From: Halorubrum sp. CSM-61
GTDB taxonomy: Archaea; Halobacteriota; Halobacteria; Halobacteriales; Haloferacaceae
DNA: 64,000 nt
Reading direction: 5' to 3'
NCBI RefSeq assembly: GCF_003781945.1
Contig: NZ_RJJW01000009.1
Span: 64,098 to 128,097, forward strand
In this document: one piece after another, positions 45,127 through 51,350 of the stretch
Numbering within the stretch: the first letter of the stretch is position 1
Layout: each line of letters starts with the position of its first letter
Notes under the pieces: model-generated
Seen by the model: the letters and a program-made list of their open reading frames with translations, nothing else
The model's database searches: none
Told to the model about the DNA's origin: nothing
Made by a program: the position numbers and the translations under genes

Positions 45127-47349
45127 ATGAACGAAGTCCAACTCGAAGTGGCGAAGGCGTACCCGAACGACTCGGGTCGCGGCATCGCCCGACTCGACCC
45201 CGACACGCTGTTGCACCTCAAGCTCTCGCCCGGCGATATCATCGAGATCGAGGGCGCGGAGACGACCGCCGCGAAGGTCTGGCGCGCGGACCGTCAGGAC
45301 TGGAACACCGACACGGTCCGCGTCGACGGGTTCACCCGGCAGAACGCCGACGTGGGCATCGGCGAGCGCGTGACGATCCGGAAGGCGGAGGCAGAGAAGG
45401 CCGACAAGCTCGTGTTGGCCCCGCCCGAGGAGGCGTCGGTCCAGTTCGGTTCCGACGCCGCCGGCATGGTGAAACGCCAGATCCTCAAGCGCCCGGTCGT
45501 CGAGCGCGACATCGTCCCCGTGATGTCGTCGACGAACCACCCGTTCATGCGGTCGCCCGGGCAGGCGATCCCGCTGATCGCGGTGGAGACCGAGCCCGAC
45601 GGCGTCTGCCTGATCACGGAGGACACCGAGGTCGAGCTGCGCGAGGAGCCGATCTCCGGGTTCGAGAAGACCGGCGGCGGGATCACCTACGAGGACATCG
45701 GCGGCCTCCAGTCGGAGATCCAGCGCGTCCGCGAGATGGTGGAGCTGCCGATGAAACACCCGCAGATCTTCTCGAAGCTCGGGATCGAGCCGCCGCAGGG
45801 GGTCCTCCTGCACGGCCCGCCGGGCACCGGGAAGACCCTGCTCGCGAAGGCGGTCGCCAACGAGACCTCGGCGTCGTTCTTCTCGATCGCCGGCCCGGAG
45901 ATCATCTCGAAGTACTACGGCGAGTCCGAACAGCAGCTCCGCGAGATCTTCGAGGACGCGAAAGAGGAGAGCCCGAGCATCATCTTCATCGACGAGCTCG
46001 ACTCGATCGCGCCCAAGCGCGAGGACGTGACCGGCGAGGTCGAGCGCCGCGTCGTCGCCCAGCTGCTGACGATGATGGACGGGCTGGAGACGCGCGGACA
46101 GGTGATCGTCATCGGCGCGACCAACCGCGTCGACAGCGTCGACCCCGCGCTCCGCCGCCCGGGTCGGTTCGACCGCGAGATCGAGATCGGCGTCCCCGAC
46201 GAGGTCGGTCGCAAGGAGATCCTCCAGATCCACACCCGCGGGATGCCGCTCTCGGACGACGTGAGCTTGGACCACCTCGCCGACGAGACCCACGGGTTCG
46301 TCGGCGCCGACATCGAGAGCCTCACCAAGGAGGCCGCGATGAAGGCGCTCCGACGGTACCTCCCCGAGATCGACTTAGACGAGGAGGAGGTGCCGCCGAG
46401 CCTCATCGACCGGATGATCGTCAAGCGCGACGACTTCTCGGGCGCGCTGAACGAGGTGGAGCCGTCGGCGATGCGCGAGGTGCTCGTCGAGCTGCCGAAG
46501 ATCTCGTGGGACGACGTGGGCGGCCTCTCCGGCGCCAAACAGCAGGTCCAGGAGTCGGTGGAGTGGCCGCTCACCTCGCCGGAGAAGTTCGACCGGATGG
46601 GCGTCAGCGCCCCGAAGGGCGTGCTGCTGTACGGCCCGCCCGGCACCGGGAAGACGCTGATGGCGAAGGCGGTCGCCAACGAGACGAACGCGAACTTCAT
46701 CTCGGTCAGGGGCCCGCAGCTGCTCTCGAAGTGGGTCGGCGAGTCGGAGAAGGCGATCCGACAGACCTTCCGGAAGGCCCGGCAGGTGAGCCCGACCGTC
46801 ATCTTCTTCGACGAGCTCGACAGCCTCGCGCCCTCGCGGGGACAGGAGATGGGGAACAACGTCTCCGAGCGCGTCGTCAACCAGCTGCTCACCGAGCTCG
46901 ACGGGTTAGAGGAGATGGGCGACGTGATGGTGATCGGCGCCACCAACCGCCCGGACATGATCGACCCCGCGCTGCTTCGCTCCGGCCGGTTCGACCGGCT
47001 CGTGATGATCGGCCAGCCGGACCAGGAGGGCCGCGAGCGGATCCTCGAGATCCACACGCAGGACACGCCGCTCGCGCCCGACGTGAGCCTCCGCGAGATC
47101 GCGGAGATCACCGACGGCTACGTCGGCTCCGACCTGGAGGGAATCGCCCGCGAGGCCGCCATCGAGGCGCTGCGCGACGACGACGACGCGGAGGAGGTCG
47201 AGATGAAGCACTTCCGCCGCGCGATGGAGTCGGTGCGCCCCACGATCACCGACGACATCCTCTCGTACTACGAGGAGGTCGAAGAGCAGTTCAAGGGCGG
47301 CAGCGGCAACGCGATCCGCGACACCGGCGGCCGGATCGGATTCCAGTAG
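45127..47349 (+). CDS. cdc48: Cdc48/p97-type AAA+ ATPase
   Basis: 740 residues. N-terminal double-psi barrel plus 4-helix domain ([20 protein letters not shown]) followed by two AAA cassettes: D1 Walker A GPPGTGKT near 230 with FIDELDS, D2 Walker A near 503 with FFDELDS. The arginine fingers are conserved ([17 protein letters not shown]). Hexameric unfoldase, in archaea feeding substrates to the 20S proteasome. The end [11 protein letters not shown] is typical of haloarchaeal CdcH. Upstream has a TATA-like gcttattcc. Confidence 0.97.
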
Positions 47350-49217: not shown

Positions 49218-50030
49218 GTGTTCTACCACGACAACCAGCTCCAGTTCGAGGTCGAAGTCGAGAACCCCGACCCCCGGTTCGCGAAGATGCTCCAGCAGGC
49301 CATCGGCGGCGCGGAGGGAGAGATGCGCGTCGCCTTGCAGTACATGTTTCAGGCCTTCGCGATCCCGGCCGAGAAACGGGAGATCAGGCAGTTCCTGATG
49401 GAGACCGCGACCGAGGAGCTCGGCCACATCGAGATGCTCGCGACCGCGGTCTCGAAGAACCTCGAAGGGGCGTCCGAGGAGGCCCGCGAGGCCGCCCGCG
49501 AGGACGCCGTCGTCGACGAGATGATGCGGTCGGGCCAGCCGCGACAGGCCCTCTCGGCGGGGTTACACGCGATGCCCGTCGACAGCAACGGCGTCCCGTT
49601 CACCGGGAACTACGTGGTCGCCTCCGGGAACCTCGCCGCCGACCTGTACGCGAACGTCATGGCCGAGTCCACGGGACGCGTGCTCGCGACCCGGCTCTAC
49701 GAGTTCACCGACGACCCCGGCATGAAGGAGATGCTGGAGTACCTCATCGCCCGGGACACGATGCACCAGAACCAGTGGCACGCCGCCTTGGAGAGCCTCG
49801 GCGAACACCGCCCCGTCCCGGCGAGCTTCGATCAGGAGAAGGAGAATCAGGAGTACAACTACTCGTTCATGTCCACCGCTCGCGAGGAGCGGCCCGACCC
49901 GGAACAGCCGTGGACGCAGGGCGAAGCGCCCGACGGGAAAGGGGAGTTCAGCTACACGCCCCGTCAGCCCGGCGGTGGCAGCCCCGATCTCAAAGAGATG
50001 ATAGACGAGATGTACAACGAGGTCCAGTGA
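49218..50030 (+). CDS. Manganese catalase
   Basis: 270 residues from GTG at 49218 (FYHDNQLQFEVEVENPDPRF). Di-manganese ligands are visible: Glu in GEMRVALQYMFQAF, Glu and His in TATEELGHIEML, a Glu/His in MAESTGRVLATRL and RDTMHQNQWHAAL. It dismutates hydrogen peroxide. The C-terminal ~60 residues are Pro/Gly/Gln-rich and disordered. The length is usual for the family. The GTG is needed because the upstream ATG (49213) is out of frame. Confidence 0.93.
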   Translation: MFYHDNQLQFEVEVENPDPRFAKMLQQAIGGAEGEMRVALQYMFQAFAIPAEKREIRQFLMETATEELGHIEMLATAVSKNLEGASEEAREAAREDAVVDEMMRSGQPRQALSAGLHAMPVDSNGVPFTGNYVVASGNLAADLYANVMAESTGRVLATRLYEFTDDPGMKEMLEYLIARDTMHQNQWHAALESLGEHRPVPASFDQEKENQEYNYSFMSTAREERPDPEQPWTQGEAPDGKGEFSYTPRQPGGGSPDLKEMIDEMYNEVQ

Positions 50031-50167
50031 CCGACCGAGAGCACCCGACGTTCCGGTCATCCGGGTTCCGTCCATCGCTCTCGAACGGTCCCCGATCCCG
50101 TATCTCCGCCTCCCCCTGCACACGCAGGCCACGATATTAATGGGCTGAGGGCAGTCCTCAATGAGTG

Positions 50168-50749
50168 ATGAGCACTGTAGTAGCGATCGAGACGCCGACA
50201 GGGGTGGCTATCGCCGGGGACACTCGGCTCGTCGACGGCGACGCGGTGTCGTCGGATCAGTTCCGGCGCGTGTTCGGCCTCAAGGGCGTCGGCGTCGGCG
50301 TCGTGGGTGAATCGGGGGCGGTTCAGCAGTTCCGCCGTCAGTTCGAGGTCAAACTCCGAGATCGGGGGCTGCGGAGCGAGAAGACTCCCGATATCGACGT
50401 CATCGCTCGCATCGCGGCCAGGGAAGCGGAGGACGCTGGCGTCGACGCCGTGATCGGCGCTCGCGACGACGACGGGACCGCGACCCTGAGAGAGGTCGCC
50501 TCCGACGGACGCGTACTCGAGGGGGGCGAGGTCGCGCTCGGTTCCGGAAGGGAGATCGCCATCGGATTGCTGGAGGCGCTCGACGCGGACGAGGCGGCGA
50601 ACGACCCCGCCGCCGCGGTGCGAAACACGCTGGAGACGGTGACAGAGCGCGACGTCAACACCGGCGGCGAGATCAACGTCTGGACTCTCGGGAGCGCCGA
50701 CCAGATCGAAAAGGACGTGCGCCGATCCGAGGACGGGGCGGAACGGTGA
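50168..50749 (+). CDS. Proteasome-fold Ntn hydrolase-like protein
   Basis: 193 residues from ATG at 50168 (MSTVVAIETPTGVAIAGDTR). The N-terminal region aligns with 20S proteasome beta/HslV: a Thr at position 3 that could become the nucleophile after removal of Met-Ser, and the conserved Asp in AGDTR. The usual catalytic Lys33 position seems to be Arg (RRVFGLKGVG). So it may be inactive, or use another base. It is separate from the regular proteasome genes. Follows the Mn catalase at about 140 bp; a stress role is inferred. Confidence 0.75.
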   Translation: MSTVVAIETPTGVAIAGDTRLVDGDAVSSDQFRRVFGLKGVGVGVVGESGAVQQFRRQFEVKLRDRGLRSEKTPDIDVIARIAAREAEDAGVDAVIGARDDDGTATLREVASDGRVLEGGEVALGSGREIAIGLLEALDADEAANDPAAAVRNTLETVTERDVNTGGEINVWTLGSADQIEKDVRRSEDGAER

Positions 50750-50810: not shown

Positions 50811-51350
50811 ATGGTAGACGTGAGCGGCCACCTGGGCATGGCGCTGCTCTGGCTCGCGCCGGCGTGGCTCGTCCTCGACCACCGGGGAACGGCGGCGGCG
50901 TTCGTCCTGTCGGGCGTCCCGTTCGGAATGTTACCGGACATCGACTTGGTGCTCGAGGGGGTCGTTCCGACCGTCAAGCACCACGGGACGATCCACACCG
51001 TGCTCGCGGTGACGCTCATGGCCGCGGTCATCGCCCCCGTCGTCGGAAAGATATTCGAGAAGATCGGTGACGAGACGGCCTGGCTGTCCCCCCAGGCGGT
51101 GGACAACAGCGTCCGCCTGGGCTTCCTGGCGGTCTGGATCCCCGGAATCGCCCACCTCTTCGCGGACATCCTCTCGGCGCCGGACATCGCCGATTCCATC
51201 GAACCGTTCTGGCCGGTGTACCCGAGTTCCCTCGGCATCGACGTCGTCTGGTACAACGATCCCCTCGCCAATTGGGGATTGCTCGCCGCCGGCGTCCTCG
51301 TCAACGTCGGGCTGTACCTCTACGTCGACGATCGACGGCCGTCGGAGTGA
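50811..51350 (+). CDS. Membrane-bound metal-dependent hydrolase (YdjM-like)
   Basis: 179 residues with four hydrophobic segments. His/Asp motifs GHLGMALLW, GMLPDIDLVLEG, HHGTIHTVLAV and HLFADILSAP fit the YdjM/DUF457 family of inner-membrane hydrolases. The membrane location and His/Asp at membrane borders are seen; activity and substrate are unknown. It ends ~60 bp before the convergent YihY gene. Confidence 0.88.
   Translation: MVDVSGHLGMALLWLAPAWLVLDHRGTAAAFVLSGVPFGMLPDIDLVLEGVVPTVKHHGTIHTVLAVTLMAAVIAPVVGKIFEKIGDETAWLSPQAVDNSVRLGFLAVWIPGIAHLFADILSAPDIADSIEPFWPVYPSSLGIDVVWYNDPLANWGLLAAGVLVNVGLYLYVDDRRPSE

Follow-up and report, generated by a model that had tools for sequence, protein, structure and literature searches.

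The proteasome of eukaryotes contains the non-catalytic beta subunits beta3, beta4, beta6 and beta7. In being without activity they would resemble the haloarchaeal family described here, but they are obligate parts of hetero-heptameric rings and their loss was independent. In yeast beta5, the exchange Lys33Arg inactivates the site and Thr1Ser leaves it active at a 40-45% lower rate, and the N-terminal amine in yeast is held by Ser129, Asp166 and Ser169 (available part of PMC4792962). The beta rings of Sulfolobus acidocaldarius hold an apparently inert beta subunit, Saci0662, which is reported to lack activity by itself. Unlike the present family, Saci0662 is crenarchaeal, is described as having both the corresponding Thr and a propeptide, and was shown to assemble with alpha (available part of PMC4569737). 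Thus, it is a precedent for inert beta subunits, not for the loss of the residue at position 1. Fuchs et al. (2021) assembled 22 further proteasome homologs, screened by conserved active-site residues. The homologs treated there (HslV, Anbu, BPH, connectase, WPH, PMI and others) share the fold family, and those besides beta and HslV have no propeptide (available part of PMC8665760).

We analysed a stretch of 64,000 nucleotides from Halorubrum sp. CSM-61 (contig NZ_RJJW01000009.1, positions 64,098 to 128,097 of the forward strand; hereafter the window), which encodes a proteasome beta-like protein (Table 1). The window protein is probably a proteolytically dead haloarchaeal beta-type subunit that acts through assembly or binding. 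A plain sequencing or frame error was ruled out as the source of its unusual residues, with 49 other copies in agreement.

Table 1. Features of the beta-like gene and its surroundings (positions in the window)
Feature	Position	Strand	Basis and remarks
CDC48-type double AAA ATPase	45127..47349	+	AAA, CDC48_N, CDC48_2; 2.8 kb upstream
Manganese catalase	49218..50030	+	PF05067, 273 bits; 137 bp upstream of the beta-like gene
TATA-like ATATTAAT	50134..50141	+	sequence, ~30 bases 5' of the ATG; family A+T peak
Proteasome beta-like gene	50168..50749	+	ORF with ATG start and TGA stop, 193 aa; PF00227; no propeptide
Ser codon, Thr1 (nucleophile) slot	50171..50173	+	sequence, joint alignment, model superposed on solved proteasomes
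Asp17 codon	50219..50221	+	joint alignment; Asp in 49/50 copies
Arg codon (Arg34 of the ORF), Lys33 slot	50267..50269	+	joint alignment
Ser codon, Ser129 equivalent	50543..50545	+	Ser or Thr in 49/50
Asp codon, Asp166 equivalent	50651..50653	+	Asp in 48/50
Thr codon, Ser169 equivalent	50660..50662	+	Thr in 49/50, a mark of the family; Ser in 51/51 canonical betas
YdjM-type membrane protein	50811..51350	+	PF04307, 39 bits (cut-off 29)

The window protein matches the Pfam family PF00227 (Proteasome) with 74.6 bits (E 1.1e-20, cut-off 22.4) and stays below the cut-offs of the NCBIfam models arc_protsome_B (TIGR03634, canonical archaeal beta; 61.2 bits, cut-off 224) and HslV (13.7 bits, cut-off 137). 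The AlphaFold monomer model, computed from a 26-row alignment, has a mean pLDDT of 89.9 and displays the beta-sandwich with flanking helices of the PF00227 fold. Comparison of this predicted model with solved structures gave 6z46_I as the best match (Z 24.7, r.m.s.d. 2.3 across 175 residues). The entry 6z46 (S. acidocaldarius Saci0613/Saci0662), that of the structural inert beta, is the best PDB match by both sequence and structure. Thus, the proteasome fold proposed in the earlier note was read correctly, as the PF00227 score and the match of the model to solved proteasome subunits indicate. The structure matches also include 1ryp_J, which we take to be chain beta3 of the yeast 20S proteasome. 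The N-terminal helical extension of proteasome alpha subunits is absent, strand 1 of the model starting at residue 3. The model has helices at 49-67 and 76-90 and none before residue 49, which differs from connectase, a protein without the first helix pair and with a two-helix insert between S3 and S4 (available part of PMC8665760). Viral kinship was considered from 37 structure matches (E 0.001 or better), the best of which has 17% identity, and they were read as a shared fold only. No relatives by sequence were found on viral contigs or in phage records, and a defence-library search gave no match for the window protein.

A joint alignment of 50 family copies and 51 canonical archaeal betas showed that the catalytic slots are altered throughout the family. 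The Gly before Thr1, Thr1 itself, Thr2, Arg19 and Lys33 are each present in 51 of the 51 canonical sequences. In the family, slot 1 is occupied by Ser in 19 copies, Gly in 14, Ala in 10 and Pro in 7, never by Thr; slot 33 holds Arg in 28, His in 14, Lys in 6 and Tyr and Gln in one each, and Arg19 is found in only 18 of the 50. No copy combines a hydroxyl at slot 1 with Lys33, all six Lys33 copies being Gly1. Seven copies from plasmid records, two of which appear to repeat copies already counted, show Ala or Gly, never Thr, in slot 1 (slots assigned by eye), and the sole Lys33 copy among them is again Gly1. The tree requires at least seven changes at slot 1 and at least six at slot 33. The earlier note had placed an Arg at Lys33, and Arg34 of the ORF indeed aligns with Lys33 of the mature betas; no alignment that was made placed a Lys there. 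However, naming Lys33 as the altered residue told only part of the change, the Thr1 slot being replaced as well (Ser2 of the ORF). The family resembles canonical PsmB, its nearest lineage, in the fold, Asp17, the Gly-Ser-Gly turn (Gly-Ser/Thr-Gly across the copies) and the Arg-Asp-x-x-Ser/Thr-Gly motif, the Arg-Asp and the Gly of which are kept from the canonical invariant set toward the C-terminal end. It differs from PsmB, which has Thr1 and a propeptide and always Lys33, the last being missing from 44 of the 50 copies.

The earlier note had also raised a third proteasome-like particle of the kind of Anbu or BPH, and the family may form a particle of its own. An active one would fit the clear beta fold and the separate lineage of the family, but the Thr/Ser-Lys-Asp triad is incomplete in all 50 copies, so that the active form of this reading is almost certainly wrong. 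The homologs of Fuchs et al., which keep the active-site residues according to the descriptions in the available part of PMC8665760, are set apart from the family on the same ground. Since that set was screened on active-site residues, the family would probably fail the screen and fall outside it.

The assignment of slot 1 depends on the register of the N terminus. For the model of the window protein, 36 of 50 structure rows begin with residue 2 against residue 1 of the solved chain, as do 31 of 50 for the model of a Gly1/Lys33 member (pLDDT 92.3). These row ranges show the first aligned residue only, and the remaining rows differ in numbering or start; the top row of both models pairs residue 3 with 2, which is the same register. 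A highly improbable alternative is that Thr3 of the ORF becomes the true nucleophile once an extra residue is removed, a Met-Gly-Thr start then being a Gly(-1)-Thr1 site. Residue 3 is Thr in 47 of the 50 copies, and Gly precedes Thr1 in canonical precursors too. However, residue 2, not 3, is opposite Thr1 in both models, and reading residue 3 as Thr2 (invariant in the canonical set) gives a gapless stretch from Thr2 to Asp17 between the family and most canonical sequences. Moreover, the remaining three copies have Ile or Val at residue 3, and Lys33 would still be missing from the 44 copies without it.

All 50 copies start at one alignment column (ATG in 47, GTG in three), and the NCBI annotation of the seven plasmid records puts the start there too. 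In 49 family upstream stretches, the A+T content peaks at about -31 to -24 relative to the start; in 6-base windows it reaches 0.57 at the window starting at -29, against ~0.2 near -20 and 0.28 near -50. The peak and the TATA-like element of the window gene would fit a TATA box and a leaderless transcript from the chosen start. A longer, propeptide-bearing start was considered, some upstream frames being open, and was rejected on the constant start column and the A+T peak ~27 bases before it. An in-frame GTG at 50165 was rejected too, as it is not conserved upstream of most relatives. No notable repeats were found near the window gene, and two imperfect inverted pairs were treated as chance.

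A search with the A1 family profile found 50 copies of the family gene, spread over 49 of 391 haloarchaeal genomes and 16 of 86 genera; a four-sequence Halorubrum alignment found four loci, all in Halorubrum. Among the matches listed for 294 genomes sampled across the phylum, full-length family members score at least 160 bits and the non-haloarchaeal ones below 90 bits, like ordinary betas. A canonical beta above the NCBIfam cut-off is present in all 15 carriers tested. A tree of 49 of the 50 family rows (the deletion copy L064 left out) with 15 of 30 non-halophile betas showed the family as a single clade with 100/100 support and a long stem (1.5 changes per site). Clustering with standard betas, which would have spoken against a distinct protein, was thus not seen. 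The clade adjoins the haloarchaeal betas (SH-aLRT 100), apart from the two alphas included, which indicates that the family is an old haloarchaeal beta duplicate, neither HslV nor alpha. In Haladaptatus, Halorussus and Halomicrococcus the gene lies on large plasmids. One genome (G213) has two family copies (L065 and L088) at distant places on one contig. Some carriers have second canonical-type betas (L150-L154) that are below the NCBIfam cut-off yet have Thr1 and Lys33; one of these, L152 (G121), stands away from the remaining haloarchaeal betas in the tree.

Purifying selection on the family is weak. Nei-Gojobori dN/dS values of ten Halorubrum pairs are 0.30-0.59, compared with 0.10-0.18 in ten pairs of the canonical beta; the 21 family pairs of another genus are below 0.45, and all 31 family pairs are below 1. 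The copy of Halorubrum sp. 48-1-W (L064, 6001-6393) has an in-frame internal loss of ~62 residues, the Gly-Ser-Gly turn included, and the gene may therefore be dispensable there. Another copy, L087 (G172), has ~20 extra residues near position 50 and matches the profile in two overlapping pieces. The higher dN/dS of the Halorubrum copies, the patchy spread over 49 of the 391 genomes and the internal deletion would suit a duplicate that is decaying or hardly used and has no specific function. However, dN/dS stays below 1 in every family pair and 49 of the 50 copies are free of a large deletion. Asp17, the Gly-Ser/Thr-Gly turn and Arg-Asp-x-x-Thr are near-invariant despite the length of the clade stem, and the place behind ftsY is retained in 13 of 43 loci. 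Decay is therefore an unlikely account of the family.

The window protein itself carries Ser1, a possible nucleophile, which speaks against its being dead. An active serine hydrolase, in which Ser1, Asp17 and Arg or His33 cut some bond in the 19 Ser1 copies, would draw on this residue, on the conserved Asp17 and amine-binding residues and on the activity of Thr1Ser yeast beta5 (available part of PMC4792962). However, none of the 19 Ser1 copies has Lys33, and Lys33Arg kills the activity of yeast beta5 (same source). Such chemistry is impossible for the Gly, Ala and Pro sister copies, and slot 1 has changed repeatedly on the tree. We consider a serine hydrolase quite improbable. The inactive relative, which the earlier note had offered as an option, is likely and well supported, and stronger than first thought, since the whole family has lost the nucleophile together with the general base.

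Methionine aminopeptidase can act where residue 2 is Ser, Gly, Ala or Pro, and residue 2 of the family is always one of these. In the dead subunit, Met1 would thus be taken off by this enzyme and the freed N-terminal amine would sit in the kept Ser/Thr129-Asp166-Thr169 pocket. With the chemistry gone, no bond would be cut, and the protein may play its role through assembly or through the binding of unfolded chains.

Comparison of the helix regions bears on the assembly. Of the columns conserved in canonical betas, the family keeps 48 of 384 cells in H1-H2 vs. 391 of 480 cells in H3-H4, a comparison of few columns in 48 of the 50 copies (L064 and L087 left out). The contrast in mean identity is less sharp (0.22 in H1, 0.19 in H2 and 0.25 in H4). 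H1-H2 face the alpha ring, so the loss in this pair leans against the joining of alpha-capped barrels, as far as sequence conservation indicates. H3-H4 form the main contact between the two beta rings (PMC8665760, section 3.3, available part). Since few columns are involved and the mean identities differ little, the use of the dead subunit is best divided among several models. The likeliest use, put forward tentatively, may be to join canonical PsmB in mixed beta rings as a silent member and so to lower or tune proteolysis, as the inert Sulfolobus beta does. Second in rank comes a possible separate, alpha-free beta-type ring that holds polypeptides without cutting them. Uses other than these two make up the rest.

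Besides the window gene, the 3.7-Mb assembly has two alpha genes, a single canonical beta with its usual KTG-TTTVG processing site, and a weak fifth match. One alpha gene is located outside the window, ~5 kb to its left and ~55 kb away from the window gene. The same genome encodes a proteasome-like protein of ~283 aa (L005, contig C11 near 488482; PF00227, 24.6 bits), which keeps a Thr beside the start Met, plus Asp and Lys in plausible places, and may belong to the homologs with insertions described by Fuchs et al. Gene neighbourhoods were compared for 43 of the 50 copies, the clusters being named from the Pfam matches of one representative (two for the SRP GTPase). The stress-type cluster that had been suggested around the window gene holds insofar as a manganese catalase and a CDC48-type ATPase lie upstream. 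However, it does not extend to the genus as a whole, the catalase cluster being upstream in only three of six Halorubrum loci. The YdjM cluster is downstream in four of the six. Of the other five Halorubrum loci, that of Halorubrum halophilum (L061) likewise has the CDC48-type ATPase cluster upstream; the cluster was not seen near the gene in the remaining four.

No single gene context is common to the whole family. The Halorussus copies sit beside an Rdx gene and a CetZ-type tubulin. In the 13 ftsY loci, the family gene stands behind ftsY in the same orientation (gap of 41-131 bases in ten) in a row of rpl39e, rpl31e, tif6, rpl18a, prefoldin and ftsY; a gene of the SRP-GTPase cluster is downstream in six of the 13, and it is srp54 in the one checked. 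The ftsY-neighbour label requires four changes on the tree (42 rows), and the position may be old or may be mere inheritance. A more specific and doubtful proposal would be a non-cutting, alpha-free beta-type ring or clamp for nascent or unfolded chains. The gene order rpl39e-rpl31e-tif6-rpl18a-pfdA-ftsY, followed in some loci by srp54, is possibly an ancestral position and would tie such a clamp to the ribosome exit, prefoldin and signal recognition.

A literature search, with most subscription journals outside its reach, found no description of the family, and no archaeal beta family that is nucleophile-less throughout while the canonical beta is retained. The available part of the Halorubrum lacusprofundi biofilm proteome names only a regulatory proteasome protein. 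Non-catalytic beta subunits are already known as a kind, and the nucleophile-less haloarchaeal family would be a variant thereof. Public records list it as '20S proteasome subunit A/B', and this name is a warning for annotation, as it points to a protease that is probably absent. Among prokaryotes, the family would be a counterpart of the silent eukaryotic beta subunits, and in its free-living carriers the mixed-ring, separate-ring and monomer models would be directly distinguishable.
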